NCBI GenBank assembly: GCA_030690405.1
Contig: JAUYGU010000167.1
Location: forward strand, 1 to 32,747
Source of the DNA: Dehalococcoidia bacterium
GTDB taxonomy: Bacteria > Chloroflexota > Dehalococcoidia > SM23-28-2 > RBG-16-64-32
Direction: 5' to 3'
DNA: 32,747 bases
In this document: positions 1,090 to 30,356 of the stretch, piece after piece
How positions within the stretch are numbered: position 1 is the first letter of the stretch
How the letters are laid out: each line of letters begins with the position of its first letter
Translations under genes and position numbers: made by a program
The notes under the pieces: generated by a model
The model's database searches: none
Seen by the model: only the letters and a program-made list of their open reading frames with translations
What the model was told of the DNA's origin: nothing

Positions 1090-1143
1090 AAGTCGGGGTC
1101 TTTAGACCCCGACTTGCGGGAGTCTGAAGACCCCCGCCTACGA
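1090..1143. repeat. Two tandem hairpins (hairpin family members 1 and 2)
   Basis: Member 1 has a perfect 12-base stem AAGTCGGGGTCT (1090-1101) / AGACCCCGACTT (1104-1115) with a two-base TT apex. Member 2 has a 10-base stem GCGGGAGTCT (1116-1125) / AGACCCCCGC (1128-1137) with a GA apex and one mismatch, followed by CTACGA. They abut directly. Neither has a following T-run, so they are not classical intrinsic terminators. They sit in the 318-base gap (987-1303) between two minus-strand genes, in which I see no gene. Confidence 0.8.
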
Positions 1144-1206
1144 GGCCGCGCGGGGGACGCTCTCGGTAAGTTGTTCGTCTTACCCACCCGCCCCCGCTGG
1201 GTCGGA

Positions 1207-1262
1207 TGTAGGGGCGACCTTCAGGTCGCCCGCCTGGGCCGCGTCGAGGCCTTCAGGCCTCC
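1207..1262. repeat. Two tandem hairpins (hairpin family members 3 and 4)
   Basis: Member 3: GGGCGACCT (1212-1220) / AGGTCGCCC (1223-1231), apex TC, preceded by TGTAG, which is the reverse complement of the family's CTACA tail. Its sequence TAGGGGCGACCT...GCCCGCC is the reverse complement of the copy at 9346-9371. Member 4: GAGGCCT (1246-1252) / AGGCCTC (1255-1261), apex TC. These lie just beyond the stop codon of the APH-like gene and may be transcribed at its 3' end. Confidence 0.8.
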
Positions 1263-1303
1263 ACTAAAGCGCGTAGGTCGATTGTCTGACGGCGCCTGCG
1301 GCT

Positions 1304-2215
1304 CTAGCGCACGCCCTCATCTCGCGCCCAGACGTCCACGAGGCGCCGGAACTTCTCGATGTCTTCCCGCGTGCCCCAGACGTTCGGCTGGTCGATGATC
1401 GGGATGATCTCGGCCAGGAGCGTGGCGCCGGCCCAGGCGCGGAAGGGGCGGTAGTCTGGCATGAGCCCCGCCGTCTCCCGGTAACCGGAGCGCCAGGCGC
1501 GAAGGATGAGCCTGCGGGCCAGGTTCAGGAAGGCGGCGGCCGGTCCGGGAGGGATGGGCGCGGCGAGGAGGGTGATCTCCGTGCGGGCCAGGTCGGCGCG
1601 GGGGTCGCCGGCGCCGGCGCGCGGCCAGTCTATGACGCCGGTGACGGCGGTGCCGTCGCTGAGCAGGTTCAGGGGGTGGAAGTCCATGTGGATCAGGGAG
1701 GAGGTGGAGAGCCCCAGCGTCCTGGCGTGGGTCGCCAGGTCCGCGTACTCCTCGTCGATACGCAAGAGCCAGTCGTCCGGGGCGGCGGCGAGGAACTCCG
1801 GCGGCGGCGTCAGGGCGTGCACCTGGGCCTGCGCACGGCCGAACAGGCGGCCGAGCCGCCAGATCGCCCACGGCCTCTGCTCCACGTACGAAAGGAGCGG
1901 CCTGCCGGGACACCAGGAGAGCACCATCGCGGGCAGTTCCTGGAAATCGCCGGTGGCCTCCAGGCGCGGCGCAGGTAACCCCCCCTTCTCGCAGGTCTGG
2001 AGCGCCAGCCGCTCGTGGCGGGCGAACTCCTCGCGGTCCGGCAGGTGATGGACCCGTAGGGAGTGCTCGCGCCCGTCGGGCGTGGCGAAGTGCCAGAGGA
2101 GCGTCTCCCAGCCGCCCTTCACCCTCTGGGGCTCCGTCGTCTCCGCGTAGCCGAGGGCGGCCAGCGCCGCTCTCGGGTCTACGCTGGGCTCAGTCGGCGC
2201 GGTGTCGGTGCCCAT
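1304..2215 (-). CDS. APH-family phosphotransferase (aminoglycoside/choline-kinase fold)
   Basis: 303 residues, usual length for the APH fold. The catalytic loop HMDFHPLNLL and the metal-binding VIDWPRAGAGDPRADL are both present near residues 175-215, so ATP-dependent phosphoryl transfer to a small-molecule hydroxyl is expected. The substrate cannot be read from sequence; members act on aminoglycosides, choline, homoserine, methylthioribose, hydroxylysine and others. It is the last gene of a three-gene minus-strand set: its ATG lies 11 bases after the stop of the alpha/beta hydrolase, which follows the class III aminotransferase by 13 bases. Pairing of an APH kinase with a class III PLP enzyme recalls the hydroxylysine kinase / phospholyase pair, but this is only contextual. 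A role in antibiotic resistance is possible but less likely in this catabolic-looking setting. Confidence 0.85.
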   Translation of the reverse strand: MGTDTAPTEPSVDPRAALAALGYAETTEPQRVKGGWETLLWHFATPDGREHSLRVHHLPDREEFARHERLALQTCEKGGLPAPRLEATGDFQELPAMVLSWCPGRPLLSYVEQRPWAIWRLGRLFGRAQAQVHALTPPPEFLAAAPDDWLLRIDEEYADLATHARTLGLSTSSLIHMDFHPLNLLSDGTAVTGVIDWPRAGAGDPRADLARTEITLLAAPIPPGPAAAFLNLARRLILRAWRSGYRETAGLMPDYRPFRAWAGATLLAEIIPIIDQPNVWGTREDIEKFRRLVDVWARDEGVR

Positions 2216-2226
2216 GTCGACGTCGG

Positions 2227-3117
2227 CTAGGCGGGCTGCCGTATGAAGTCGAGGACCGTTCCGGCGACGGCTTCGGGGTCCTCGATCGGGAGGAAGTGAC
2301 CGAGGCCGGGCAGCTCCGTGTAGCGGGCCTGCGGCAGCTCGGCGCTGAGGGCGCGGCCCATCTCCAGGTTGGCGATGGGGTCGCCGTCCGCCCAGACCAG
2401 TTGGATTGGCGCCGCGGCTTTGAACGCGCCCAGCCAGCGTTCGCGGTGGAGGTAGCGCTCCCGCATGTAGCCCGCCAGCGCCGGCAGGCGGCGGTTGCCC
2501 TGCTGGTAGAACAGCAGCTCCTCCATCACCGCGGCGTCTTCGTCGCTCACCACCTGCGGGCGCTTCATTATCGCCTTCAGGCTCTGCACGTAGTTGACGG
2601 ACAGGTTCTCGCAGATGGCGATCGCCTGCGTCAGGGTCTCGTTGGAGCCCAGCAGTTGCTGGATTGGGGTGATAGTGGCCTTATCTTGCAAAGTGCTGCC
2701 GTTCAGCAGGGTCGATGAGAGGATGCGGAAGGCCAGGCGCCCCTCTTGCTCGCGGGCCAAGAGCTCGGCGTGGACGGTCTGCCCCACGTCGTGGCTGACG
2801 ACGTGGGCTTCTGCGATGTCCAGGGCCCGCGCAATCCCTTCCGCCATGTCCGTCTGCTGGAAGAGCGAATAGCTGTAGGCGACCGGCTTATCGGAGAGGC
2901 CGTAGCCGGGGAAGTCGAAGGCGATGCAGCGATAGCTGGCGCGGAGGATGTCAATGACGCCGCGCCAGTCGTAGCAGGAGGTCGGGAAGCCGTGGAGGAG
3001 GAACACCGCCTCGCCCGTGCCGCGCTCGTATACGAAGACGCGCCGTCCGTCCAGATCAACGTGCCGGCCTTCACTGAGCCAGCGGCTGGTCGGCTCGGAG
3101 AACGCAGGTGCGTCCAC
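2227..3117 (-). CDS. Alpha/beta hydrolase, MEST/haloalkane-dehalogenase-like, Asp nucleophile
   Basis: 296 residues. Oxyanion-hole motif HGFPTS (42-47), the nucleophile elbow VVSHDVGQ placing Asp110 where lipases carry Ser, a cap region (about 135-215), and a C-terminal GLGHFLPIEDPE supplying the catalytic His274. An Asp nucleophile is typical of haloalkane dehalogenases, fluoroacetate dehalogenase and epoxide hydrolases. The run HGFPTSCYDWRGV...AFDFPGYGLSDKP...YSLFQQ...SHDVGQ resembles the mesoderm-specific-transcript (MEST/PEG1) branch, whose substrate is not established. A soluble cytoplasmic hydrolase of ester, epoxide or carbon-halogen bonds is the safe reading. Middle gene of the apparent aminotransferase - hydrolase - kinase operon, with 13- and 11-base gaps. 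Confidence 0.88.
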   Translation of the reverse strand: MDAPAFSEPTSRWLSEGRHVDLDGRRVFVYERGTGEAVFLLHGFPTSCYDWRGVIDILRASYRCIAFDFPGYGLSDKPVAYSYSLFQQTDMAEGIARALDIAEAHVVSHDVGQTVHAELLAREQEGRLAFRILSSTLLNGSTLQDKATITPIQQLLGSNETLTQAIAICENLSVNYVQSLKAIMKRPQVVSDEDAAVMEELLFYQQGNRRLPALAGYMRERYLHRERWLGAFKAAAPIQLVWADGDPIANLEMGRALSAELPQARYTELPGLGHFLPIEDPEAVAGTVLDFIRQPA

Positions 3118-3130
3118 AAGTGCGGTCTTC

Positions 3131-4411
3131 CTAGTACCGGTTGGACGATTCGTCGACTGTGCGCGCCAGCGTGAGGGCGGTGCCCACCTCCTGGAAGGCG
3201 CCGTCGAAGGCGTCCAGCACCTCGTCGGCCTCCTCAGCCTGGATGATCAGGGGCGGCATGAGCTGGAGGATGTTCGGGTTGTAGTGGGCGTAGACGGCGA
3301 TTACGCCGCGCGCCGCGAGCGCGCGCGCCATGAGCATGCCGCAATCCTTGTGCGACATGACGACGCCGATCATGAGGCCGCGACGGTTGAGCCCCTTCAG
3401 CACCTCGGGGTACTTCTCGCGCAGGGCGGCGAAGCCGTCGTCGAACCGCTGTCCCATAGCCTGAACGTGCTCCAGGAAGCCCGGTTCCGTGATCTGGTCC
3501 AGCATGGCCATCGCGGTGACGCAGCCCAGCTCCGAGCCGCCGGTAGAGGAGAGGTGGGCGAAGGCGTTATCGTCGAAGAAGGACTGGAGGTGCTTGCGAT
3601 AGGTGGCGGAGGAGAGCGGGTAGATGGCGGCGCTCATCCCCTTGCCGCAGACCATGATGTCCGGGGTTACGGCCCACTCCTCGTAGGCCCAGAGGCGTCC
3701 GGTGCGGCCCAGCCCCGCCTGCACCTCGTCGAGGATCATGATGACGCTGCGCTCGTCGCACAGCTTCCGTACGCGCGGGTACCAGTCGTCCGGGGGTATG
3801 GGGAAGCCGGCGGTAGCCGGGATCGTCTCCATGATGACGGCGGCCACGTCGTCCGTGACGGCGGCCTGCAGCGCCTCGAAGTCGCCGAAGGGGACGCGGC
3901 GGAAGCCGGGAGCGAGCGGGCCGAACTTGGCGCCGAACTCGTCGGTGGCGGCCAGGGCGAGGCCGGTGTGGCCGTGGTAGCCTTTCTCCGCCGATATGAC
4001 GCCCGCCCGGCCCGTGTAGCCGCGGGCGAGCTTCAGGGCGAAGTCTATCGCCTCTCCACCGGAGGAGCCGAACGTCGTGTACTGGAGGTCGCCGGGGGTG
4101 AGCTCCGCCAGCCGCTTGGCGAGGAGGCCGCGGTAGCCGCTGGCCAGCATGTGGTCGCTCATGTCGATCTCGTCCAGCGCGGTCTTGAGGGCGGCGATGA
4201 TTCGCGGCGGCCGGTGGCCGAGGTTGAATACGCCGCCGGCGCTGCGACAGTCGATCCAGGAGCGGCCGCCGTCGTGGTCCCAGACGCGCACGCCTTCGCG
4301 GCGGCCGGGGATGAAGTCTACGCCCCACATGCGGTACATGTTGACCTTCTGGGGCGATACGTAACCGGCGAAGTAGTCGAGGAGCTGCTGCTGGGATCGC
4401 TGCTCAGACAT
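3131..4411 (-). CDS. Class III (fold type I) PLP-dependent aminotransferase
   Basis: 426 residues, normal for the family. The phosphate-binding SSGGEAIDFALKLAR (115-130), the cofactor-ring motif ILDEVQAGLGRTG (Asp228) and the Schiff-base lysine in CGKGMS (Lys257) are all present, so the enzyme should be active. YHGHTG near 145 is also typical. The family includes acetylornithine, ornithine, GABA and beta-alanine aminotransferases plus a few phospholyases; the exact substrate is unclear. It is the first gene of the minus-strand set leading into the hydrolase and the APH-fold kinase. The ATG is preceded by a GAGAGG-like ribosome site. The 201-base gap to the divergent HD-GYP gene (4412-4612) must carry promoters for both, but I see no strong consensus boxes in it. 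Confidence 0.9.
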   Translation of the reverse strand: MSEQRSQQQLLDYFAGYVSPQKVNMYRMWGVDFIPGRREGVRVWDHDGGRSWIDCRSAGGVFNLGHRPPRIIAALKTALDEIDMSDHMLASGYRGLLAKRLAELTPGDLQYTTFGSSGGEAIDFALKLARGYTGRAGVISAEKGYHGHTGLALAATDEFGAKFGPLAPGFRRVPFGDFEALQAAVTDDVAAVIMETIPATAGFPIPPDDWYPRVRKLCDERSVIMILDEVQAGLGRTGRLWAYEEWAVTPDIMVCGKGMSAAIYPLSSATYRKHLQSFFDDNAFAHLSSTGGSELGCVTAMAMLDQITEPGFLEHVQAMGQRFDDGFAALREKYPEVLKGLNRRGLMIGVVMSHKDCGMLMARALAARGVIAVYAHYNPNILQLMPPLIIQAEEADEVLDAFDGAFQEVGTALTLARTVDESSNRY

Positions 4412-4612
4412 GGGGCACCTCTCTTCGGCTGGCGGGCGGCCTCGAGGCCAAGAAACCAGATTTGGCGCTCGCTGTCAACCGCGGAGCGGCCGCCGCGCCG
4501 CCGAGGGCGCTTCACCAATCCTTTACCTGGGCGGCGCGCGCCGGCGTAACGGCCGTATGGGCGTCCGCATCTCTGATGTTGAATCCGTTCGTCTTCTCGA
4601 TGAAGGAGCGGC

Positions 4613-5572
4613 ATGTCCGCAGACGACCACGACGACGCAGATAGCAGCGCGAGCCTTGAGAGGCGGGCGCGACTGGCCGCCCGCCGCGTTAGTAGCAGCG
4701 GCGGGCGGCCGGCGAAGGTCAGCAAGTGGGTCTGGATGGCCGGCGTCGTGACCACCGTCGCCTCCATGACCGTCCTGCTGATGGGCCAGGAGCCCTCCGC
4801 GTTCAACTACCTTGCGACCTTTGTCCTGCTGGGCTCCATGGGCACCCTCGCCTTCGTCTCCGCGGCCCGCGCCCTCAACTTCGGCGCTCGCTACGAGGAG
4901 TCCATCCTGTACGTCGAGGAGGTGGAGCGCAGCTACCGCTCCCTGCGGCAGGTGGTGACGACGGCGATGGACCTGCGCGACCGCGTCACCGGCGGCCACT
5001 CCGACCGCGTCGTCGAGCTATCGCTGGAGCTGGGGCGAGGCTTGGGGTTGCCGGAGGAACGCCTCTATCACCTGGAGTGGGGCGCGTTCCTGCACGACAT
5101 CGGTAAGGTGCGTGTCGATGAGGGGATTCTCACCAAGCCCGGCCCGCTGGACGCCAGTGAGTGGGGCGAGATGCAGCAGCACCCGTTCTTCAGTTATTCG
5201 ATCCTGATGCAGGTGGAGGCGCTGCGCGAGGCTGCTGAGATAGTGTACTGCCACCACGAGCGCTTCGACGGCATGGGCTATCCGCGCTCTCTGCGGGGGA
5301 CGGATATCCCCCTGGAGGCGCGCATCTTCTCCGTGGCCGACGCCTACGACGCTATGGTATCGCCGCGGCCGTATCGCCAGATGATGACCCACGAGGATGC
5401 CGTGCGGGAGATCATCTGCCACGCCGGCAGCCAGTTCGACCCGCAGGTCGTGACCGTATTCGCCCGCTGGGCGGTGACGGTGAGCGACGGCAGCGCCCGC
5501 GACATCGTGGAGGAGGAGCTGCAGCGGCTCCCCGCCGGCCTGCTGCGACTGGACCGCGCCCGCTGGGGCTAA
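4613..5572 (+). CDS. Membrane HD-GYP domain phosphodiesterase
   Basis: 319 residues. Two predicted membrane helices (about 38-56 and 65-85), a short coiled linker (about 95-120), then an HD-GYP domain. Diagnostic motifs are intact: GGHSDRVVELS (127-137), HDIGK (161-165), the HHERFDGMGYP signature (214-224) and SVADAYDAM. Proteins with this set hydrolyse cyclic di-GMP (or cGAMP) in the cytoplasm; here there is no GGDEF or receiver domain, only a minimal membrane anchor with almost no external loop, so it may sense the membrane itself or a partner. AAGGAG (4603-4608) sits four bases before the ATG. It appears monocistronic, followed by a palindrome-rich spacer. Confidence 0.93.
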   Translation: MSADDHDDADSSASLERRARLAARRVSSSGGRPAKVSKWVWMAGVVTTVASMTVLLMGQEPSAFNYLATFVLLGSMGTLAFVSAARALNFGARYEESILYVEEVERSYRSLRQVVTTAMDLRDRVTGGHSDRVVELSLELGRGLGLPEERLYHLEWGAFLHDIGKVRVDEGILTKPGPLDASEWGEMQQHPFFSYSILMQVEALREAAEIVYCHHERFDGMGYPRSLRGTDIPLEARIFSVADAYDAMVSPRPYRQMMTHEDAVREIICHAGSQFDPQVVTVFARWAVTVSDGSARDIVEEELQRLPAGLLRLDRARWG

Positions 5573-5590
5573 GGCAGCGCGCCCTCCGGA

Positions 5591-5610
5591 CCGCCGAATG
5601 AATTCGGCGG
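5591..5610. repeat. Hairpin family member 5
   Basis: Perfect stem CCGCCGAAT (5591-5599) / ATTCGGCGG (5602-5610) with a GA apex, 18 bases after the HD-GYP stop codon. It has the T-GA-A core shared with the other hairpins but a different stem and no CTACG tail. No T-run follows. Confidence 0.75.
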
Positions 5611-5629
5611 CATCATCCCTGACGAGGCA

Positions 5630-5704
5630 CGTAGCAGCAGGGCCCTTCGACAGGCTCAGGACATGCTTTAGCCTTGCCAGCAGGCCTAAAGGCCTGCAGC
5701 TACG
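5630..5704. repeat. Composite palindromic element, copy A (includes hairpin member 6)
   Basis: 75 bases bounded by imperfect 10-base inverted ends CGTAGCAGCA and TGCAGCTACG. Inside are CCTTCGACAGGCTCAGGACA (5644-5663), the constant segment TGCTTTAGCC, and the hairpin GCAGGCCT (5680-5687) / AGGCCTGC (5690-5697) with AA apex. It closely matches copy B at 8208-8283 over its whole length. No open reading frame; MITE- or BIME-like. The 166-base gap between the HD-GYP and VOC genes is mostly occupied by this and the preceding hairpin. Confidence 0.85.
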
Positions 5705-5724
5705 GTCGTCCCGCCGCCCGGTGC

Positions 5725-5730
5725 TACAAT
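5725..5730 (+). promoter_or_regulatory. -10 box for a probably leaderless VOC mRNA
   Basis: TACAAT ends eight bases before the ATG at 5739, putting the expected transcription start at or within a couple of bases of the start codon. No Shine-Dalgarno sequence precedes that ATG. No convincing -35 hexamer is visible 17 bases upstream. Confidence 0.5.
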
Positions 5731-5738
5731 GCGGGCGC

Positions 5739-6593
5739 ATGATCACGGACGTCCACCACGTCGGCATAGCCGTGCGCGATATGGCGGCGGCGCTGCGCTT
5801 CTATAGCGAGGCGCTGGGCCTGCCCGTCGTCAAGGAGGGCGAAGCGCCGGCGCGGGGGGCCCGCGTGGCGCTGGTCGCCGTGGGCGGCAGCTACCTGGAG
5901 CTCGTTCAGCCCGTCACCGACGGCTCGCCCTTCGCCCGGCACATCGAAGAGCGGGGCGAAGGGCTCCACCACGTCGCCCTGCGCACGGATGATGTCGATG
6001 CGCTGGTGGCGTCGCTGCGGGAGTGGGACGTGCCGCTGGAGGACGAGCGACCCCGCGAGGGGTTCACCGGCCGGCTGAGCTTCCTGGCCCCGGAGGCGAT
6101 GGACGGGGCGCTGCTGGAGGTCGTCCAGCCGCCGCCGGAGCTGTCCGGCGACAACGCCCCCGCGGGCGTGATCACTCGCATCGACCACGTGGTGCTGCGC
6201 CTCCCGGACGTGGAGGAGGCCTGCCGCCGGATGCGCTACTACTTCGGGGTGGAGACGAAGCGCACCTTCGAGCGCGGCGAGACGCGGTTCAGCTTCCTGC
6301 GTCCGGGCGACGTGGTGCTGGAGCTTATCGGCCCTTCGACTCCGGCTGACGCCGGGCTCAGCACAGGACCGAATGAGGTACCAGCGGAGGCGCGGCCCGG
6401 GTCCATCGCCGGGCTGGCGTTCGAGTGCGTGGGGATCGACGGGCTGGCGGCGGAGCTGGCGGCGAAGGGCTACCCTATCGGCGAGCCACACCCGGCGCTC
6501 CAGGGCGGGCGCATCGTCAGCGTCCACGCGGACGGCCCCGGCGTGGCCGGGGTGCCCGTTGCCTTCATCGACTTCACGGACTCGCCGCGCTAG
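5739..6593 (+). CDS. Two-domain VOC protein, methylmalonyl-CoA epimerase-like
   Basis: 284 residues from the ATG that gives MITDVHHVGIAVRDM, the normal beginning of a VOC fold; an upstream in-frame ATG at 5598 would add 47 residues translated from repeat sequence, so I reject it. The first domain (1-130) matches methylmalonyl-CoA epimerase in pattern: HHVGIAV, YLELVQP, RGEGLHHVAL and LLEVVQ supply the expected His/Glu metal ligands. The second domain (about 143-284) begins ITRIDHVVLRLPD and ends VPVAFIDFTD; it keeps the fold but is more diverged and could bind a different ligand. A role in racemising an acyl-CoA or a related dioxygenase/isomerase reaction is plausible and fits the downstream thiolase. 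Residues about 200-218 (PSTPADAGLSTGPNEVP) come from DNA that resembles the dispersed CCTTCGAC...CTCAG element. Confidence 0.85.
   Translation: MITDVHHVGIAVRDMAAALRFYSEALGLPVVKEGEAPARGARVALVAVGGSYLELVQPVTDGSPFARHIEERGEGLHHVALRTDDVDALVASLREWDVPLEDERPREGFTGRLSFLAPEAMDGALLEVVQPPPELSGDNAPAGVITRIDHVVLRLPDVEEACRRMRYYFGVETKRTFERGETRFSFLRPGDVVLELIGPSTPADAGLSTGPNEVPAEARPGSIAGLAFECVGIDGLAAELAAKGYPIGEPHPALQGGRIVSVHADGPGVAGVPVAFIDFTDSPR
6331..6376. repeat. Possible in-frame dispersed-repeat insertion inside the VOC gene
   Basis: CCCTTCGACTCC...GGGCTCAGCACAGGACCGAATG has the two halves of the CCTTCGACAGGCTCAGGAC dispersed element in the right order, with about 13 extra bases between. It is translated as a Pro/Ala/Gly/Ser-rich stretch in a loop between beta strands of the second VOC domain. 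Similarity is partial, so this is tentative. Confidence 0.35.
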
Positions 6594-6600
6594 GGCTGTG

Positions 6601-6909
6601 ATGGCGGCGTTGGCCGGCTTCGCACTTGCCTTTGCCATCGAGCTGATGACTCTCGCTGTCCTTCGCAGGGCCCTTGACCAGGAGGCCCAGGGCGCCCAGT
6701 CGTACGTCATATGGGTGCTCATCGGGTGCATTGTGCTTTCGGCCCTCGTCGCGGGAATAGCAGATCGCCGGGCACGGCGGTTCGGTGTGGGGTCCGCAGT
6801 TGGCGCGTCTCTGCTGCTTCTGTTCGCTTCGTGGGCGCTGTGGTTCGCCGCCTTCCAGATGGCCTGTAGCGGCACTCAGACGCCCTTCTTCGCGATAAGC
6901 TGTAATTAG
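6601..6909 (+). CDS. Small three-helix membrane protein, unknown function
   Basis: 102 residues starting seven bases after the VOC stop codon, so probably co-transcribed with it. Three hydrophobic segments are evident: LAGFALAFAIELMTLAVL (about 4-21), SYVIWVLIGCIVLSALVAG (about 34-52) and VGSAVGASLLLLFASWALWF (about 63-82), with a basic loop RRARRFG between the second and third. No family recognised. No ribosome site is visible ahead of the ATG (a GTG three bases earlier is an alternative), so it may be translated by coupling. A non-coding alternative is possible, but the hydrophobic periodicity is too regular for a chance frame. Confidence 0.55.
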   Translation: MAALAGFALAFAIELMTLAVLRRALDQEAQGAQSYVIWVLIGCIVLSALVAGIADRRARRFGVGSAVGASLLLLFASWALWFAAFQMACSGTQTPFFAISCN

Positions 6910-7011
6910 GGTTGGAGGCGGCGTCCAGTCTGGCGCAGACCCACGACTCGTATTACCATATGCAGGCATCGCGTTTACGTTAGCATTCGCCCCGGTTTGA
7001 CCTGAGGATCC

Positions 7012-7034
7012 GTCCTGAGCACTGTCGAAGGAGG
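7012..7034. repeat. Inverted dispersed-repeat copy carrying the thiolase ribosome site
   Basis: GTCCTGAGCACTGTCGAAGG is the reverse complement, with one or two changes, of the CCTTCGACAGGCTCAGGAC unit found at 5644 and 8221. Its end runs directly into AAGGAGG (7028-7034), which lies six bases before the GTG start of the thiolase gene, so the repeat contributes part of the Shine-Dalgarno sequence. Confidence 0.65.
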
Positions 7035-7040
7035 CGCTCC

Positions 7041-8195: not shown

Positions 8196-8207
8196 CGCTG
8201 GAATCCA

Positions 8208-8283
8208 CGTAGCTGCAGGGCCCTTCGACAGGCTCAGGACATGCTTTAGCCCTGCCAGGCAGACCTGAAGGTCTGCAGCTACG
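8208..8283. repeat. Composite palindromic element, copy B (includes hairpin member 7)
   Basis: 76 bases bounded by a perfect 11-base terminal inverted repeat CGTAGCTGCAG (8208-8218) / CTGCAGCTACG (8273-8283). It contains CCCTTCGACAGGCTCAGGAC (8221-8240), TGCTTTAGCC, and the hairpin GCAGACCT (8259-8266) / AGGTCTGC (8269-8276) with GA apex. It is near-identical to copy A but the stem has changed on both sides (GCC to ACC, GGC to GGT), keeping the pairing. It begins 12 bases after the thiolase stop codon. Confidence 0.88.
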
Positions 8284-8293
8284 ACCGAACCCA

Positions 8294-8315
8294 GGGACAG
8301 GCCTGAGCCTGTCCC
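8294..8315. repeat. 22-base palindrome next to composite element copy B
   Basis: GGGACAGGC (8294-8302) / GCCTGTCCC (8307-8315) with a CTGA loop. It shares the GAGCCTGTC core of the dispersed CTTCGACAGGCTCAGG unit and lies ten bases from copy B. No T-run follows. Confidence 0.7.
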
Positions 8316-8373
8316 ACGAAACGAGATCACAGGGGCGCGGCACGCTGCGTCCCGATTCTGAATGGAGGCCCGC

Positions 8374-9342
8374 ATGAAGGCAGCCGTCTACTACGAGACC
8401 GGCGCCCCGGACGTCTTCCGCTACGAGGATGTGCCCGACCCGCAATGCCGCGCGGGCGGCGTCCTTATCGAGGTGAAGGCGATCAGCATTGAGGGCGGCG
8501 ACGTCCTCAACCGCGCCGGCGGCGACATGCCCGCGAAGCCGCACATCGTCGGCTACCAGTGCGCCGGCGTCATCCGCGAGGTGGGCGAGAACGTGAACGA
8601 CCGCGCGGCCGGTCAGGCGGTGGTGACCGTGATGCCGTTCGGCTCCCACGCGGAGATCGTCTCCGTGGCGGCGATGCAGACGTGGCCTGTCCCGGAGGGG
8701 ATGGCTCTGCGGAAGGCGGCCTGCGTCCCCATCCCCTTCGGCACCGCCCACGAGTGCCTGTTCGAGTTCGGGCGGCTGGAGGCGGGGGAATCGGTGCTCA
8801 TCCACGCCGGCGCGGGCGGCGTCGGCCTCGCCGCCATCCAGCTCGCCAAGCGGGCGGGAGCGACGGTCCTGGCGACCGCATCCAGCGACGAGAAGCTGGA
8901 GCGGCTCAAGGAGTTTGGGCTGGACCACGGCATCAACTATCGCACGGAGGACTGGGTGGCGCGGGCCCGCGCCCTCTCGGGAGGCGGTGGCGTCGCCCTC
9001 GTCGTCGATTCCGTGGGCACCACGCTGCCCGGCAGCGTCCAGGCCACCGGCTATCGCGGGCGCGTCGTCTCGGTGGGTAACGCCGGGCGCTCGGAGGAGC
9101 GAAAGCTGGACATCAGCGGCCTGAGCGAGATGAACCGCTCGCTGACCGGCGTCTTCTTCGGCGGCGCGCTGATGATGGAGCCGCAGCGCGGCCGGCCGCT
9201 TGTCGAACAGCTTCTGCGGGATGTGGCCGACGGCTCGTTGCGCGTCGTCATCGACCGCGAGTATCCGCTCTCGGAGGCCGCGGCCGCCCACGCCTACATC
9301 GAGAGCCGCCAGGCGCTCGGGCGGGTCGTGCTGGTGCCGTAA
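8374..9342 (+). CDS. Zinc-independent quinone oxidoreductase (MDR superfamily)
   Basis: 322 residues from ATG 8374, chosen because GGAGG (8365-8369) sits at good spacing and the product then starts MKAAVYYETGAP, typical for the family; an ATG 12 bases earlier overlaps that ribosome site. GroES-like N-terminal domain (about 1-115) lacks the catalytic and structural zinc cysteines of alcohol dehydrogenases. The Rossmann domain carries AGAGGVGLAAIQLAKRAGA (about 145-165), giving NADPH binding. The reaction is likely NADPH-dependent reduction of a quinone or enone in the cytoplasm. The C-terminus PLSEAAAAHAYIESRQALGRVVL is typical. The physiological substrate is unknown; context next to thiolase permits an enoyl reductase role. 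Confidence 0.9.
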   Translation: MKAAVYYETGAPDVFRYEDVPDPQCRAGGVLIEVKAISIEGGDVLNRAGGDMPAKPHIVGYQCAGVIREVGENVNDRAAGQAVVTVMPFGSHAEIVSVAAMQTWPVPEGMALRKAACVPIPFGTAHECLFEFGRLEAGESVLIHAGAGGVGLAAIQLAKRAGATVLATASSDEKLERLKEFGLDHGINYRTEDWVARARALSGGGGVALVVDSVGTTLPGSVQATGYRGRVVSVGNAGRSEERKLDISGLSEMNRSLTGVFFGGALMMEPQRGRPLVEQLLRDVADGSLRVVIDREYPLSEAAAAHAYIESRQALGRVVLVP

Positions 9343-9348
9343 GTTGGC

Positions 9349-9373
9349 GGGCGACCTGAAGGTCGCCCCTACG
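9349..9373. repeat. Hairpin family member 8, between convergent genes
   Basis: GGGCGACCT (9349-9357) / AGGTCGCCC (9360-9368), GA apex, then CCTACG. It starts six bases after the quinone reductase stop and ends 12 bases before the stop of the convergent rpiB gene, so it would be in both transcripts. Same sequence as member 3 at 1207-1231, in the opposite orientation. Confidence 0.8.
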
Positions 9374-23243: not shown

Positions 23244-23356
23244 TGGAACGCCAGCCGCGCGTCGCTGTCCTTGACCTCGGGCGGGTAGAAGCGCCGGCAG
23301 CCGACCAGCGACCTTTCGACCCAGGAGGAGCTGCCGATGTAGATGCGCGCGGACAT
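23240..23356 (-). pseudogene. N-terminal remnant of a DUF72 (YecE-like) protein
   Basis: From ATG 23356 the frame reads MSARIYIGSSSWVERSLVG, CRRFYPPEVKDSDARLAFHA, the normal N-terminus of DUF72 proteins (family about 230-300 residues, TIM-barrel like, function unsettled). Similarity stops after about 39 residues at the join with Ku sequence, in a different frame (offset of one base). This is a gene head fused by deletion to the tail of ku; the two are often neighbours in other genomes as far as I recall. Confidence 0.75.
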
Positions 23357-23475
23357 AAGAAACGGTCCTTGAGGGCCATGATCGGCGGGCCGCCGGGAGC
23401 TGTCAAACGGGAGCCGCGGCCGTGCTATGCTGACGCTGGTGGTAGGGGCCGTGCGCCCCGGAGGGAGACGCTGAG

Positions 23476-24654
23476 TTGAAGGTGATAGTGCTGGGAGGCG
23501 CCGGACTCATCGGCCGGGCGGTAGTGCGTGACCTCGCCGAGCAACGGGACGTGGATCTGACGATCGCCGACGCCAACCCCGCCGCGGCGGAAGAGATCGC
23601 CCGCTGGGCGGGCGGCGACCGTGTCGCCGTGCGGGAGCTGGACGTCACCGACGAGCGGGCGCTGGTCGAGGTGCTGTCCGGGGCCGGCTGCGCGGTGAAC
23701 GCGGTGAACTACTACCACAACCTGACGGTGATGGGCGGCTGTCTGCGCGCCGGTGTCCCTTACGTGGACCTGGGCGGGCTGTTCCACATGACGCGCAAGC
23801 AGATGGAGCTTGACGCCGGCTTCCGTAAGGCAGGCGTGACCGCCATCCTGGGCATGGGCGCCGCTCCCGGCGTCACCAACCTCCAGGCCGCGCTCGCCGC
23901 CCGCGGGCTGGAGAGCGTCGAGAGCATCCGCATCTTCGATGGGGCCGTGCCGATCGAGGAGGAGGGGATCAACTGGGGCTATTCCCTGGCCACGATCCTG
24001 GACGAGATCACGATGAACCCCGTCACGTTCCGCGACGGGCAGTTCCTGGAGCTGGAGCCGCTGGCCGAGCCGGAACTGTACTCGTTCGCGCCGCCGGTCG
24101 GGCCTCAGACCGTCCACCACTCGCTGCACTCGGAGCTTGCGACCCTGCCCCTGACCTTCGCCGGCCGCGGTGTTCGGGAGGTCAGCTACAAGATCAACCA
24201 CTTCGGCCTGGCGGAGGACGTGTTCGAGCGGCTGAAGCTGCTCGTCGACCTCGGCCTGGCCTCGAAGGAGCCCCTGACGGTGGGCGGGACCTCCCTGCTG
24301 CCGCGGGACGTGCTCATCGCCGCCCTCAGCCGGCAGGTCTCGCCGGCAACGCAGCCGTTCGAGGACACTTCGGAGGAGCTCGTCACGGAGGTGCGCGGCC
24401 GCGATTCGGACGGCGCCGCCAAGGTCACCGTCCGGACGATGACCCCCGGGAAGCCCGACTGGGGCCTCAGCGGCGACGCGCTGGTCACGGGCGTCCCTTC
24501 GGCGATAGCGGCTGTGTGGATCGCCTCTGGGCGGCTGCGCGCCCCCGGCGTAAATGCGCCGGAGTCCGTGGTGGAGCCGGAGGCGTTCTTCCGGGAGATG
24601 GCCGCCCGCGGCGCCGAGACGAAGATGGCGGTCGAGCGGAGCGTTACCGGCTAG
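23476..24654 (+). CDS. Saccharopine dehydrogenase-family oxidoreductase
   Basis: 392 residues from a TTG, with GGGAG about 10 bases upstream; [20 protein letters not shown] is the Rossmann start (GGAGLIG, 7-13). [28 protein letters not shown] and [10 protein letters not shown] are the family signatures, and the large C-terminal domain (about 130-350) is complete. Family members act on saccharopine, carboxynorspermidine or related amino-acid adducts with NAD(P). The next genes encode polyamine uptake, so a carboxyspermidine/lysine-type reaction is a reasonable guess but unproven. Its stop codon overlaps the stop of the convergent potA gene (shared CTAG at 24651-24654). Confidence 0.85.
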
Positions 24655-25796
24655 CCGCCGGCGTCCCCTTCCGGCGGCGGCGACCCGGCTGTGGCCGGCA
24701 GCACGTAGGCGGTCTCCGGGTCCCAGGTCACCCAGACGCCGGACCCGGCCTCGACCCCTGCCGGGCGGTCCTGGGCGAGCATTATCACCACAAGGGCGCG
24801 CTCCTCGGCCGTCTGGAGGTCGAACCGTACGACCGGACCCTGGAACACAATGTCCACCACCCGGGCCTGGAGTCTGCCCTTCGTCTCTTCGCCGGGTGGA
24901 GCGGCGGAGATCCGCAGCCGCTCCGGTCGCAGCACCAGCAGGGCGATCTCGCCGGTGCTGAAGCTCCGGCCGTCGGCGCCGGCGACCGTAGAGCCGCCGC
25001 CGGGCAGCGCCAGCGTTACCTCGCGGCTGTCGGCCCGCTCAACCGCGGCGGGCAGCAGGTTGGCCAGGCCTATGAACCCCGCGACGAACTCAGAGGCGGG
25101 CCGGTCGTATATCTCCTCAGGCGTCGCCAGCTGCTCCACCCGTCCCAGGTTCATCACGGCCACACGGTCGGACATGGTGAGGGCCTCTTCCTGGTCGTGC
25201 GTGACGTAGATGAAGGTGATCCCCACGTCGCGCTGAATGCGCTTGAGCTCAAGCTGCATCGCCCGGCGCAGCTTGAGGTCGAGCGCGCCCAGCGGTTCGT
25301 CCAGCAGGAGGGCGCTGGGGTAGTTGACCAGCGCCCGCGCCAGGGCGACGCGCTGCTGCTGGCCTCCGGAGAGCTGAGCCGGCTTTCGCTGGCCGAACCC
25401 GGTGAGGTGCACTATCTCCAGCATCGCCTCCACCCGCGACCTCACCTCACGGGCCGGCACGCGTCGGCTGCGCGGGCCGAAGGCGACGTTGTCGAACACG
25501 TTCATGTGAGGGAACAGGGCGTACTGCTGGAATACCATGTTGACGTTCCGCCGGTAGGGCGGCACGTCCGAAACGTCGTGGCCTTCCAGGATGATCCGGC
25601 CGCTGGTCGGCGTCTCGAAGCCCGCGACCATGCGCAGGGTGGTCGTCTTGCCGCAGCCGGAGGGGCCGAGCAGCGAGAAGAACTCGCCGCGCTGGATGCC
25701 GAGGTTGATCTCTTCGACGGCGATAACGCTGCCGAACCGCTTGGTGACGCGCTCCAGCGTGATGACCGTGTCCGGGGGCTGATCGGGGAGGGGCAT
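24651..25796 (-). CDS. potA: Spermidine/putrescine ABC transporter ATP-binding protein
   Basis: 381 residues. Walker [10 protein letters not shown] (44-52), Q-loop Gln90, signature [15 protein letters not shown] (142-156), Walker [12 protein letters not shown] (163-173) and H-loop His200 are intact, followed by a C-terminal TOBE/regulatory domain (about 240-360). The Pot assignment rests on [31 protein letters not shown] and on the potB/C/D genes 1.5 kb away on the same strand. It powers polyamine import at the inner face of the membrane. It is separated from them by an oppositely oriented aminotransferase gene, so it needs its own promoter in the 145-base divergent gap. Confidence 0.93.
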
Positions 25797-25876
25797 CCCG
25801 TGTCACCTGCTTCTCGCTGGGCGCCGTGAGCGGACCTCCGCGGCGCGGCCCGAACGTTGCTGAGCCTAAGTTTAGC

Positions 25877-25905
25877 TTGTCGAGCCTCCGGGCATCAATT
25901 AGACT
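25877..25905 (+). promoter_or_regulatory. Candidate sigma-70-type promoter for the GSAM-like gene
   Basis: TTGTCG (25877-25882), 17-base spacer, TAGACT (25900-25905), then a 5' leader of about 30 bases with GGGAG ten bases before the ATG at 25942. Both boxes match consensus in four of six positions. Confidence 0.45.
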
Positions 25906-25941
25906 GGGGATAGGCCACCTGTTGACACAGGGAGACTCACG

Positions 25942-27309
25942 ATGCGACGGGCGACGGTAGACGGGAACGCGGTGGAACGGCTGATCGCGCGGGAGATCGA
26001 GTCGTTCCAGGCAAGGACGCCGGGAGCCAGGAGCATCCTCGATCGCGCCCGCAAAGTCCTCCCTCTCGGCGTGCCGTCTACCTTCCAGGATCACCCGCCG
26101 TACCCCCTCTACGTCCGCCGCGGGCAGGGTTCCCGCGTGTGGGACGTGGACGGCAACGAGTACATCGACTACCACCTCGGCTTCGGCTCCCTGGCGGTCG
26201 GCCACGCCCATCCTCGTCTGGTGGAGGCGCTCAGCGAGAGGCTGCGGAACGGCTCCATGTTCGCGATGGCCACGGAGGAGGCGGTATCGCTGGCCGAGGA
26301 GCTGTGCCGCCGCTTCGGGCTCGACATGGTGCGCTTCTCGAACTCCGGTACCGAATCGACGATGGACGCCCTCCGCGTCGCCCGCGGCGTTACCGGCCGC
26401 GACCTGATCGTGAAGATCGAGGGCTCCTACCACGGCCATCACGACTACGTGATGGTCTCCGTGAAGCCAAGCGCGGAAGAGATGGGGCCGCTGGACCACC
26501 CGGCCTCTATCCCGCTGTCCACCGGGATCCCGGCGGCGGTGGCCGCTATGACGCTGGTCGTCCCGTTCAACCAGCCCGACGCGCTGGCGCGAACGCTGGA
26601 GGAGCACGAGGGCAAGGTGGCGGCGCTGATTATCGAGCCCGTCATGATGAACCTCGGCATCGTCCATCCGGCGGCCGGCTATCTGGAGGCGATAAAGCGC
26701 ATCACCGAGGAGCACGATGTGCTGCTGGTCTACGACGAAGTGAAGACCGGTGTGACGATAGCGCCGGGCGGCGCCTGCGAGCGCTACGGCGTGCAGCCGG
26801 ACCTGGTCTGCCTGGCCAAGTCCATCGGCGGCGGCATCACCATCGGCGCCTTCGGCGGCCGGCGCGAGCTGATGGAGCACGTCAGGCCCGGCGATGTCGC
26901 CCACCAGGGGACGTTCAACGGCAACCCCCTGGCGATGACGGCGGGGCTGGTCACGCTCACCGAGATACTCACCCCGGACGCCTACGAGCGGTTCGAGCGC
27001 CAGGAGGAGCGGCTGGTCTCCGGCTGCGAGGAGATCATCCGCGAGCACGGCCTGCCGATGTACTCGACCGGCATCGGCGCCAAGGGCTGCGTGATGTTCG
27101 CGCCGGAGCCGCTCTCGGACTACCGCGACTACCTGAACATCGACAAGGACCTCGCCTACCTGCACTGGCTCTACTTCATGAACCGGGGCATCTTCATGCC
27201 GCCGGGGCTGGACGAGCAGTGGACGCTCTCCGTCCAGCACAGCGATGAGGACATCGAGGCGCACCTGGCGGTGTTCCGGGAGTTCGCGCGGGACGTGACG
27301 GCGGCCTAG
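25942..27309 (+). CDS. GSAM-like class III aminotransferase/aminomutase inserted in the pot locus
   Basis: 455 residues. Phosphate-binding SNSGTESTMDALRVAR (133-148), YHGHHDYV, the Asp of VYDEVKTG (Asp265) and the Schiff-base Lys293 in LAKSIGGG give a complete PLP site. The order VPSTFQDHPPYPLYVRRGQGSRVWDVDGN resembles glutamate-1-semialdehyde aminomutase, but no other tetrapyrrole gene is near and the EVKTGVTIAPGG region departs from HemL, so a broader amino-acid or polyamine aminotransferase is more likely. It is encoded opposite to, and between, potA and potCBD. A role in transaminating the imported amine is a contextual guess. Confidence 0.85.
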   Translation: MRRATVDGNAVERLIAREIESFQARTPGARSILDRARKVLPLGVPSTFQDHPPYPLYVRRGQGSRVWDVDGNEYIDYHLGFGSLAVGHAHPRLVEALSERLRNGSMFAMATEEAVSLAEELCRRFGLDMVRFSNSGTESTMDALRVARGVTGRDLIVKIEGSYHGHHDYVMVSVKPSAEEMGPLDHPASIPLSTGIPAAVAAMTLVVPFNQPDALARTLEEHEGKVAALIIEPVMMNLGIVHPAAGYLEAIKRITEEHDVLLVYDEVKTGVTIAPGGACERYGVQPDLVCLAKSIGGGITIGAFGGRRELMEHVRPGDVAHQGTFNGNPLAMTAGLVTLTEILTPDAYERFERQEERLVSGCEEIIREHGLPMYSTGIGAKGCVMFAPEPLSDYRDYLNIDKDLAYLHWLYFMNRGIFMPPGLDEQWTLSVQHSDEDIEAHLAVFREFARDVTAA

Positions 27310-27320
27310 ACCGCCGGGGC

Positions 27321-28157
27321 TCAGGCGCGGCGGCGCTGCAGCAGCAGGCTGAGCGCCATCAGGGTCACGGTTCCGCCCATGATCATCGTGCCCATCACGT
27401 TTATCTGTGGTGGCACGGCCACGCGGGCGGCCCCCCAGACGAACAGCGGGAACGTGACCTCCTGCCCGGAGTTGAACAGCGTGATGATGAAATCGTCCAG
27501 GGATAGCGCGAAGGCCAGGAGGGCCGCCGCCAGGATGCCGGGGAAGATCAGCGGCAGCGTCACCTTGAGGAACGTCCGGGCCTCATTCGCGCCCAGGTCC
27601 ATCGCCGCCTCCTCCAGCGTCCAGTCGAACCCCCGCAGGCGCGCCTTCACGGTGACGACGACATAGCTGATGTTGAACATCACGTGCGCGATGATTATCG
27701 TCGCGAACCCCGTCTGCACGCCGAGCTGCAGGAAGAGCGTCAGCAGGGAGGCGCCCAGCACGATCTCCGGTGTGGTAAGGGGGATCAGCACCAGCAGGTT
27801 GGTGGCGGAGAAGCCGAAGAAGCGGTAGCGGATCAGGGCCAGGGCGATCAACGTTCCGAGGGCGGTGGCAATGATGGTGGAGATGGCGGCGATCTCCAGG
27901 CTGAGGATCATCGCGTCCGACAGCCCGTCCACCACGAAGGGGTGCCGCCAGGCGTCCAGCGAGAAGCCGTTCCAGACGAAGTTGAACCGCCCCTCGATGT
28001 GGTTGAAGCTGAACAGCACCATCACCGCTATGGGCAGGAAGAGATAGCCCAGGGCGACGGCGGCCCACACCGTGACAAGCTGGCCGCCCAGGAAGCGCAG
28101 GGCCCGCAGCGCCAGGCCGGGACCGCGCCTGGTCGTGGCCGCTTCCATGGTCGCCAT
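27321..28157 (-). CDS. potC: Spermidine/putrescine ABC transporter permease
   Basis: 278 residues with six membrane helices. The EAA loop EEAAMDLGANEARTFLKVTLPLIFPGILAAALLAF (about 185-220) that docks with the ATPase is present, and the MVLFSFNHIEGRFNFVWNGFSLDAWRHPF segment is characteristic of PotC. It starts two bases after the potB stop (potB-potC, tightly coupled) and ends 11 bases from the convergent aminotransferase stop. It forms half of the translocation pore in the cytoplasmic membrane. Confidence 0.92.
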   Translation of the reverse strand: MATMEAATTRRGPGLALRALRFLGGQLVTVWAAVALGYLFLPIAVMVLFSFNHIEGRFNFVWNGFSLDAWRHPFVVDGLSDAMILSLEIAAISTIIATALGTLIALALIRYRFFGFSATNLLVLIPLTTPEIVLGASLLTLFLQLGVQTGFATIIIAHVMFNISYVVVTVKARLRGFDWTLEEAAMDLGANEARTFLKVTLPLIFPGILAAALLAFALSLDDFIITLFNSGQEVTFPLFVWGAARVAVPPQINVMGTMIMGGTVTLMALSLLLQRRRA

Positions 28158-28159
28158 CG

Positions 28160-29035
28160 CTAGGTGATCTGCTCGGTTCCCAGCAGACGCGCGTAGACCC
28201 CCACGGCGATGAGGATGGTGGCCATCAGCAGGAAGGAGAGCGCCGCCGCCGAGGGGTAGTCCAGCAGCACAAGGAACCGGCTCTGGATGACGTTGCCGAT
28301 CATCGTCGTGTTGGGCGAGCCGAGGAGCGCCGCGTTGACGAAGTCGCCCGCCGCCGGGATGAAGGTCAGGAGCGTGCCGGCGAAGACGCCGGGCAGGGAG
28401 AGCGGGAAGACGACGCGGAGGAAGGCCCGTATGGGGCCGCCGTAGAGGTCGTGCGCCGCCTCCACCAGGCGCCTATCGATCCGCTCCAGACTGACGTAGA
28501 TGGGCAGCACCATGAATGGGAGGAGGTTGTAGGTGATCGCCGTGACCACGGCGGTGGGCGTTGCCAGCAGCCGTCCGTTCTGGGAGATGTGGAGCGTGTC
28601 CAGGACGTCCATGATCCCCAGGTCGCGTAGCGCTGCCACTGCATTGCCCTCGTCGCTGAGGATCGTCTGCCAGGCGAGGGTGCGGATGAGGTATGTCGTG
28701 AAGAAGGGGAGGACTACCAGGAACAGCAGGTAGTTCTTGAAGCGTCCCGCCCGAAAGGCGATCGCGTAGGATTGGGGGTAGCCGATGACGAAGGCTAGGA
28801 GGGTGGCGATTCCCGCGTAGCGGAACGAGCGGATGAACTGCTCCTGGTAGCGGTCCACCGAGTCGGCGAAGTTCTGCAAGTGCCAGGTGAAGCGGAAGCC
28901 GGTGTCAAACGTGCCCTCTTCCAGGGAGCTCTGCGCCAGCGTCACCATAGGCGCGACGAAGAAGATGAGCAGCCAGGCTATCCCCGGCGCCAGCAAGATA
29001 TAGGGGACCAGGGCCCGCAGGCGGCCGAACGTCAC
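28160..29035 (-). CDS. potB: Spermidine/putrescine ABC transporter permease
   Basis: 291 residues with about six membrane helices. LLAPGIAWLLIFFVAPMVTLAQSSL begins the protein and the EAA-type loop EAAHDLYGGPIRAFLRVVFPLSLPGVFAGTLLTF lies near 205-238. SPNTTMIGNVIQSRFL is typical of PotB. It starts six bases after the potD stop and pairs with PotC as the membrane channel. The gene order here is potD-potB-potC with potA detached. Confidence 0.92.
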   Translation of the reverse strand: MTFGRLRALVPYILLAPGIAWLLIFFVAPMVTLAQSSLEEGTFDTGFRFTWHLQNFADSVDRYQEQFIRSFRYAGIATLLAFVIGYPQSYAIAFRAGRFKNYLLFLVVLPFFTTYLIRTLAWQTILSDEGNAVAALRDLGIMDVLDTLHISQNGRLLATPTAVVTAITYNLLPFMVLPIYVSLERIDRRLVEAAHDLYGGPIRAFLRVVFPLSLPGVFAGTLLTFIPAAGDFVNAALLGSPNTTMIGNVIQSRFLVLLDYPSAAALSFLLMATILIAVGVYARLLGTEQIT

Positions 29036-29041
29036 TGGCGG

Positions 29042-30205
29042 CTAGAGCCCGGTGAGCGCCTGGAACAGCTCGTTGAACTCCCGGTCTTCCTCCTCGTCGA
29101 GGGCCTTGAAGATGCGGCTCTTGGCCAGTACATCCTCGCTGGGGAAGATGATGGGGTTCTCGGCGAGGGCCGGGTCGATCTTGGCCATCTCCTCTTTGGT
29201 GCCCTTTACGGGCGGGATGTATTGCACGTACGCCTCCACCTGGGCAGTGATCTTCGGGTCGTAATAAAAGTTCATGAACGCTTCCGCCGTGGCCTTGTGG
29301 GCGGCGTTCTTGGGGATCATCATGTTGTCGGACCAGAGCATGAAGCCTTCTTCCGGGAACAGGAATTGCAGGTCCGGGTTGTCCACTTGCAGCTGTATGA
29401 CATCGCCAGACCAGGCGATGGCCGCCCAGACGTCGCCGCGGGCCAGGTCGTCGCCGTACTCGTTGCCTGTGAAGGCGCGGATGTGGCCGCTGTCCGCGAA
29501 CGGTTGCACCTTCTCCACAACGGCCCTGACATCGTCAACGGTAGCCTTCGTTGGGTCGCGGCCCAGGCCCAGCATCACCAGCCCGATAGTATCTCGCATC
29601 TCCGTGAGCATGGTGACGTGGCCCTCGAACTTCGGATCGAAGATGTCGTTGACGCTCTTCAGTTCGCGGCCCGTGAGCTTCGGGTTGTAGCCAATGCCGG
29701 TAAAGCCGGACTGCCAGGGCAGGCTGAACTCTCGCCCCAGGTCGAAGGAAGGGTTCTTCAGGGCGTCCACAAGGTTTACCCAGTTCGGGATGTTCTCCTT
29801 GTTCAGCTCATCCACGTAGCCCAGCCTGATCAGCCGGCCCGCCATCCAGTCCGTCAGGACGATGATGTCGCGGCCGATGTCCTGGCCTTGACTGAGCGGC
29901 TGCCTTATCTTGGCGAAGAACTCGTTGTTATCGTTGATGTCCTCTTTGTAGTTGACCGTGATCCCAAATTGGGCCTCGAAGTCCGGGAGCGTCTGCTCAT
30001 CGATGTAGAGGGGCCAGTTGGAGAAGTTGAGGGGGCCGGTGAGCGCCTCCCCTGTCGGCGTACCGGCCGGCGCTCCTTCGTCCTTGCAGCCCAGGACGGC
30101 CGCCGTCGCCAGTCCGGCCGCGCCGAGGGCGGTCCCGGCCATGAGCCGTCGCCGCGTTATTCGCCGTCCCCACAGCCGCCTCCAGCTATCGCTTATCTCC
30201 GCCAT
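29042..30205 (-). CDS. potD: Spermidine/putrescine-binding lipoprotein, probably Tat-exported
   Basis: 387 residues. The N-terminus RRITRRRLMAGTALGAAGLA followed by TAAVLGC is a Tat-like twin-arginine signal with a lipobox Cys, so the protein should be exported folded and lipid-anchored. The mature domain is the periplasmic-binding fold of PotD: LNFSNWPLYIDEQTLPDFEAQFGI, DWMAGRLIRLGYVDELNK, GYNPKLTGRELKSVNDIFD, ARGDVWAAIAWSGDVIQLQ and the C-terminal YDPKITAQVEAYVQYIPPVKG. It captures polyamine outside the membrane. The ATG has AGGGGGC a few bases upstream. First gene of the potD-potB-potC set. Confidence 0.94.
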   Translation of the reverse strand: MAEISDSWRRLWGRRITRRRLMAGTALGAAGLATAAVLGCKDEGAPAGTPTGEALTGPLNFSNWPLYIDEQTLPDFEAQFGITVNYKEDINDNNEFFAKIRQPLSQGQDIGRDIIVLTDWMAGRLIRLGYVDELNKENIPNWVNLVDALKNPSFDLGREFSLPWQSGFTGIGYNPKLTGRELKSVNDIFDPKFEGHVTMLTEMRDTIGLVMLGLGRDPTKATVDDVRAVVEKVQPFADSGHIRAFTGNEYGDDLARGDVWAAIAWSGDVIQLQVDNPDLQFLFPEEGFMLWSDNMMIPKNAAHKATAEAFMNFYYDPKITAQVEAYVQYIPPVKGTKEEMAKIDPALAENPIIFPSEDVLAKSRIFKALDEEEDREFNELFQALTGL

Positions 30206-30292
30206 GGGTAGCCCCCTTTCGGTAGATACGACGCGCCGCCGATGCCGCGAATGTATACCTGCGTGGGTGCTGATGTCAACGAGTGGGCGGAT

Positions 30293-30321
30293 GTCATTCT
30301 GAGCGAAGCGGAGAATCTGGG
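30293..30321. repeat. Dispersed GTCATTCTGAGCGAAG-type repeat
   Basis: GTCATTCTGAGCGAAGCGGAGAATCT... with short inverted ends ATTCT/AGAAT. I recall this as one of the common dispersed intergenic units of Chloroflexota and some other phyla. It lies in the 194-base gap (30206-30399) ahead of potD on the minus strand and beyond the aldehyde dehydrogenase stop. Confidence 0.7.
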
Positions 30322-30331
30322 GGTGGGTAGG

Positions 30332-30356
30332 GCAGGCCTGAAGGCCTGCAGCTACA
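30332..30356. repeat. Hairpin family member 9
   Basis: GCAGGCCT (30332-30339) / AGGCCTGC (30342-30349), GA apex, then AGCTACA. Same stem as member 6 (5680-5697) with a different apex. It is ten bases downstream of the GTCATTCTGAGCG repeat, 44 bases after the aldehyde dehydrogenase stop on the minus strand. Confidence 0.82.

Follow-up and report, generated by a model that had tools for sequence, protein, structure and literature searches.

GTAG-headed REP elements of several stem families in a Dehalococcoidia genome and the RAYT transposases that probably spread them

Our findings concern a set of short intergenic hairpins in a 32,747-nucleotide stretch of Dehalococcoidia DNA (phylum Chloroflexota; contig JAUYGU010000167.1 of assembly GCA_030690405.1), which we refer to in its entirety as the window. 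With a probability of about 0.93, we interpret these hairpins as GTAG-headed repetitive extragenic palindromes (REPs) of several families in a Chloroflexota lineage, arranged in part as inverted pairs known as bacterial interspersed mosaic elements (BIMEs), and they were probably spread by a small REP-associated tyrosine transposase (RAYT). An earlier note, made from the letters of the window, had listed nine hairpins at 1090, 1116, 1212, 1246, 5591, 5680, 8259, 9349 and 30332 and read them as one family under selection for structure; the observation is confirmed and its interpretation is partly supported, with REP/BIME having been the right lead.

Results

All nine hairpins are present at these positions, and their two-base apices (five GA, two TC, one TT and one AA, as had been counted) all become TTYA once read on one strand. 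The sequence GTAG lies 5' of the stem, on the strand that carries the TTYA loop, in six of the nine (1116, 1212, 5680, 8259, 9349 and 30332, one mismatch allowed), and all six hairpins with this head present TTYA on the GTAG strand; this is the CTACG or CTACA tail that the earlier note saw beside most of them. Stems are 7 to 11 bp long in seven hairpins, that at 1246 has six perfect pairs, and that at 1116 contains one mismatched pair. The G+C content of the window is 67.9%. Perfect stems of 7 bp or longer whose loop reads TTYA on one of the strands number seven, compared with a mean of 0.017 and a maximum of 1 in 300 first-order Markov shuffles, and five of them have GTAG close to their 5' side, compared with none across the same shuffles. 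As proposed earlier, all nine are intergenic under the chosen gene set, in which non-coding sequence makes up 1052 of the 10,076 bases between 1021 and 11096; the gene to the left of 1090 is uncertain, as none of the candidate open reading frames there has a Pfam match, and the chosen frames 550-1020 and 5724-6875 likewise gave no match in the Pfam search. The absence of T-runs also held, none being seen in the flanking sequence inspected, and the hairpins therefore lack this mark of intrinsic terminators. A repeat search across the window returned, among the matches listed, mostly weak similarity between coding stretches.

Rather than a single family, the nine hairpins represent at least three REP families, with GCAG, GGGCGACC and GCGGGGGTC stems, together with one decayed copy and one probable non-member. 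The GCAG family comprises the minus-strand REPs at 5680-5703 (GCAGGCC, loop TTTA), 8259-8282 (GCAGACC, loop TTCA) and 30332-30355 (GCAGGCC, loop TTCA), as well as two interrupted plus-strand partners at 5630-5678 (GTAGCAGCAGGGC) and 8208-8257 (GTAGCTGCAGGGC). The GGGCGACC family comprises the plus-strand REP at 1208-1234 and its exact inverted copy on the minus strand at 9346-9372, both with the loop TTCA. At 1088-1115, a plus-strand REP with an altered GTAA head, a perfect 11-bp stem and the loop TTTA is the left partner of an inverted pair with the minus-strand GTAG REP at 1116-1141, which has the mismatched stem, the loop TTCA and the plus-strand CTAC at 1138-1141. The hairpin at 1243-1264 (plus strand; GAGGCC-TTCA-GGCCTC), lacking a clear GTAG head, is a decayed REP-like hairpin, and its stem resembles one beside the RAYT at locus L150. 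The hairpin at 5591-5610 (CCGCCGAA-TGAA-TTCGGCGG, no strand assigned) is probably not a member of the set, having no GTAG and a loop closed by A-T rather than C-G. Directly past the REP pair at 8208-8282 lies an additional perfect palindrome without GTAG (8294-8315; GGGACAGGC-CTGA-GCCTGTCCC).

The closest relatives of the window's RpiB (79-82% identity) are found in genomes G418 to G421 and G423, which belong to one order of 25 genomes, and the window thiolase is 89.7-91.9% identical to its counterparts in G418 to G421. Gene order is broadly common to the window and these relatives, most fully with G420 (1.3 to 14.6 kb), apart from some absent or additional genes; a contig search based on the thiolase returned, among the matches listed, only distant loci (best 64% identity). 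A search of 393 genomes of the class, themselves taken from a larger group, found an exact 24-mer of the GCAG type in 10, eight of them inside the order of 25, with up to 51 copies in one relative (G425), and the GGGCGACC-type pattern with one mismatch occurs in 9 of the 25 genomes; both reversed-pattern controls gave zero. A looser GCAG pattern with two mismatches is noisy (341 matches in 13 genomes, against 104 for its reversed control) and shows no excess over that control in G518 and G420. In 912 kb from five relatives, sampled without regard to hairpins, GTAG followed by a C-TTYA-G hairpin with at least six of seven pairs occurs 14 times, whereas the control heads GATG, CTAG, GAGT, GGTA and TGAG give 3, 1, 1, 1 and 0; since control heads also yield well-paired matches, linkage to GTAG is an excess and is not exclusive. 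Together with the shuffles, these searches bear out the expected excess over control sequence, and REPs are denser in the window than in the fragmentary assemblies of its relatives.

Two sources account for the stem differences: the coexistence of several REP families, each associated with a transposase lineage of its own, and compensated changes of stem pairs inside families. Among 125 GTAG-headed rows typed from the two-mismatch GCAG matches in relatives, 97 have the C-TTYA-G core, of which 70 form all seven Watson-Crick pairs, 84 at least six and 8 fewer than five. Within 61 GCAG-type copies (18 distinct, preselected for at least five of seven pairs), pair 5 is G-C in 40, A-T in 18 and something else in 3, while pair 6 is G-C in 32, C-G in 26, T-A in one and mismatched in two; in the 20 rows starting GTAGGG, pair 6 is G-C in 10, C-G in 9 and T-A in one. 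Paired cells amount to 96.3% in these preselected rows, compared with 84.0% (maximum 88.8%) when the 3' arms were re-dealt in 2000 shuffles, figures in which related copies count as non-independent events and for which the loop and closing pair had belonged to the selection criteria. Stem letters thus vary yet pairing persists, inside families and between them. The earlier suggestion that the two arms change together is upheld, independent drift of the arms was not seen, and the selection on a structure implied by the earlier note is supported in that sense.

The anticipated link to a Y1 transposase exists in close relatives. The Y1_Tnp domain (PF01797) is present in 14 of the 25 genomes of the order, and nine of ten Y1 proteins scored exceed the cut-off of the NCBIfam model NF047646 (REP_Tyr_transpos), the tenth (L132) being of the IS200 type; the Y1 proteins that lie between GTAG hairpins score above the REP_Tyr_transpos cut-off and below that for IS200. 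At L134 and L135, the gene is flanked by GTAGCT-GCAGGGC with the loop TTCA and by an inverted GTAGCT-GCAGGCC with the loop TTCA or TTTA, which is the stem type of window hairpins 5680, 8259 and 30332. At L148, it stands between two GTAG-GGGCGACC hairpins with the stem of window hairpins 1212 and 9349, and a RAYT at L343 likewise lies between inverted hairpins of a window stem type. The arrangement that defines a REPtron, a REP_Tyr_transpos gene between two inverted REPs, is accordingly found at L134, L135 and L148 in relatives and not in the window. Other RAYTs adjoin other stems (GACAGAGC/GACAGACC, GGAGGCC, GGTCAGGGC and GGCCAGGC), and a clear end hairpin is missing from some of the 21 RAYT flanks inspected (e.g., L147 and L153). 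RAYTs with the same stem cluster in a FastTree topology of 24 Y1 proteins, taken from 23 of the 30 Y1 loci in the order of 25 genomes plus G609, and a search of the PDB with the L148 protein returned the TnpA-REP structure 4er8 as its sole match (E 8e-9).

Other Y1 loci in the relatives have hairpins of different kinds. The Y1 genes at L132 and L157 lie near CCGC-type hairpins that lack GTAG and whose loop is TTTA, TTCA, TGAA or TAAA, and the two loci have CCCCAGCC-TTCA-GGCTGGGG in common. Loci L142, L158 and L138 represent another kind of RAYT locus, with GTA-headed GGTCACGGC or GTCAGGGC stems and CCNN loops (CCCA, CCTA, CCCT), and two of these loci grouped as a separate lineage in the tree.

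Orthologous gaps in the relatives, compared for the sites other than 30332, do not contain the window hairpins, which favors mobile insertions over a conserved RNA element. After the HD gene, no REP occurs within 200 bases in any of four relatives, and G418 and G421 have there a different GC hairpin followed by TTTT. The gap between thiolase and rpiB is short and without REPs in G418, G420 and G421, G419 has a decayed GTAGCT copy past the thiolase, and G423 has three REPs beside rpiB, of which two are GCAG-type and the third resembles window hairpin 1116. After the APH gene, alignment by eye shows the G423 flank to lack the hairpin block of the window, and G420 could not be aligned there. The compared intergenic sites show a pattern of insertion, as sites that take up REPs repeatedly, and not that of a conserved element. 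Two further differences were seen at these sites: a zinc-binding dehydrogenase gene (8362-9342) stands between the window's thiolase and rpiB, which are separated by no more than a gap of some 90 bases in G418, G420 and G421, and the hairpin at 5591-5610 occupies the place of the GC hairpin and TTTT of G418 and G421, being perhaps a decayed or replaced terminator.

Three stretches of the window (1088-1141, 5630-5703 and 8208-8282) show the alternating orientation and short distance of BIMEs. Among 71 copies in relatives, 26 neighboring pairs are no more than 600 bases apart, with copies shared in two clusters; every pair is inverted, and 23 have GTAG outward. In 25 of the 26, the partners differ in the base pair that lies two positions from the loop, by a G-C/C-G switch within the GCAG family; three of these unlike pairs span a RAYT gene, and the one exception includes a copy with a mismatched stem. 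G419 has a similar unlike pair, and in G609 hairpins of the GCCGAGC/GCCGACC type are accompanied by an ACAG-type partner in nine of the 12 stretches examined, the two differing in the outer stem (GCCG-type versus ACAG-type) in all nine. The window pairs 5630-5703 and 8208-8282 fit the plan of the GCAG pairs, save for the interrupted left partner. The interruption, CCTTCGACAGGCTCAGGACATGC, is the same in 5630-5678 and 8208-8257 and matches a separate dispersed repeat whose core, TTCGACAGGCTCAGG, occurs 33 times in the loci examined; the composite of REP and interruption was found in the window only. We considered the inner G/C switch as a universal rule for partners but rejected it, since the ends at L148 are alike and the G609 partners differ in the outer stem; a second GTAG-headed hairpin was also not seen in 12 of 18 GGGCGACC-type stretches.

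Discussion

In the mechanism that we propose, each REP family would derive, in shortened form, from the two ends of a RAYT element, and the dispersed pairs resemble such ends without the gene between them. A REP would fold in single-stranded DNA, for instance at a replication fork, where the RAYT would read the GTAG tag, the TTYA apex and the paired stem and cut nearby, and copies would then spread into intergenic gaps. Stems could drift by compensated changes, with each RAYT lineage acquiring a stem of its own, because pairing would count for more than most of the stem letters. Transposition itself we infer, and the reading of apex and tag by the RAYT is suggested by analogy with the biochemistry reported from other bacteria (PMC8266576).

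Several points weigh against this account. GTAG is absent from three of the nine window hairpins, 1090 carrying GTAA, 1246 having no clear head and 5591 none, and the last two are without the tail that had been noted. The window itself has no RAYT that could be found: the best match in a RAYT tblastn search (E 0.002, 63 residues, 29% identity) is not credible, and the link between REP and RAYT is thus observed in relatives only, whose assemblies are fragmentary. The PDB match of the L134 protein to the IS200-type structure 2fyx (E 2.5e-6) is slightly better than that to 4er8 (E 1.7e-5). Only three of the ten genomes with the exact GCAG pattern (G419, G423 and G609) have a RAYT beside GCAG-type ends, and no Y1 match was obtained in G426 or G429, which both have the pattern (a Y1 search did not include G518); we attribute the missing Y1 genes of G426 and G429 to loss or to fragmentary assembly. 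A related case is G425, whose 51 exact GCAG-type REPs stand against a single Y1 gene that adjoins a different stem, its cognate RAYT having been lost or not assembled.

That the hairpins are instead RNA structures (terminators, stabilizers of mRNA 3' ends or protein-binding hairpins), maintained at the 3' ends of genes by selection acting on transcripts, would agree with their intergenic placement, mostly directly past a gene end, and with the persistent pairing of their stems, and REPs have been suggested to act at the RNA level too (PMC3733652). We nevertheless consider this very unlikely, as the inspected flanks have no T-run, no Rfam family reached its gathering score in a scan of the window, and the copies, which are almost identical to one another, have GTAG at one side and correspond to the ends of RAYT genes. 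Because the window hairpins are missing from the compared orthologous gaps, we do not adopt a conserved RNA element as the principal interpretation.

Mobile DNA of another kind, namely the ends of an ordinary IS200/IS605 element or a miniature inverted-repeat transposable element of some other transposon, would fit with the IS200-type Y1 genes in two genomes of the order and the TTYA-like hairpins near one of them, L132. The hairpins of L132, the sole IS200-type protein scored, however, are CCGCACCT and CCCCAGCC without a GTAG head, whereas the proteins between GTAG hairpins score as REP_Tyr_transpos and under the IS200 cut-off, leaving this origin with a negligible share of the probability. 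Equally little can be said for chance palindromes of a G+C-rich genome: the window does contain further perfect palindromes, some of them within genes, and 5591 may be one of these or a terminator relic, but seven hairpins where 0.017 are expected, with exact counterparts in other genomes and none for the reversed control, refute chance for the set, except for 5591 and in part 1246.

GTAG-headed REPs thus remain our preferred interpretation, and most of their properties are already in print, including stem covariation, short TY loops, heterodimers, repeat-specific RAYTs and Chloroflexi hosts. The GTAG REPs and BIMEs described by Di Nocera et al. 2013 (PMC3733652), with Chloroflexi among their hosts, have a GTAG end, a short stem and loops that fit TY or CMA, TY standing between T and A as in the window; they are intergenic, form several families per genome with alternative complementary stem residues in sub-families, and occur as head-to-head dimers that preferentially join unlike partners, together with repeat-specific REPtrons. 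This likeness is one of described anatomy. The RAYT elements or REPtrons of Nunvar et al. 2010 (PMC2817692) resemble the loci of the relatives in having a transposase between two inverted REPs, several RAYT-specific REPs per genome and complementary mutations that preserve the palindrome, and differ in that the linkage here is confined to relatives, the window being without a RAYT. Stem covariation around a fixed apex and tail, which the earlier note had singled out as meriting attention, is therefore already documented in these two papers. In the group 3 TnpA-REP system of Marinomonas, as reported in PMC8266576, the TTTA loop must keep its first two T and its A but tolerates other bases at position three; cleavage suffers when the stem is mismatched, whereas exchanging the stem for its complement is of moderate consequence. 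These results are consistent with a constant TTYA apex and drifting stems in our set. That system shares with ours a perfect stem, a T-T-N-A loop on the GTAG strand and a requirement for pairing with partly free letters, although its stem has 5 bp compared with 7 to 11 bp here. What is new are the members themselves, and perhaps the clarity with which a fixed tag and apex stand out against moving stems; the constancy of tag, closing C-G pair and apex amid drifting stems is a mildly interesting residue.

It is conceivable, though we consider it doubtful, that the two ends of an element are told apart by the differing stems of the partners, as by an identity code, while the reading of tag and apex by the RAYT stays constant. 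The differences in question would be the inner G-C/C-G switch of the GCAG family and the outer stems of the G609 partners. Within the one order, RAYTs with as little as about 38% identity (L134 versus L159) keep GTAG and the C-TTYA-G apex, and if such a code existed, stem letters would label ends and families, with tag and apex serving catalysis. The like ends of the GGGCGACC family at L148 speak against a code, as does the alternative, suggested in PMC3733652, that unlike partners result from the clearance of perfect long palindromes, from which heterodimers may be protected.

Our findings place well-described tiny mobile repeats and their transposase in a little-studied Chloroflexota lineage, with several families present at once. 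They also carry a warning that conserved-looking intergenic hairpins should not be called regulatory RNAs without a check for empty sites. With tag, apex and pairing that look fixed and stems that look free, the lineage is a useful natural data set on which part of a REP its transposase reads.

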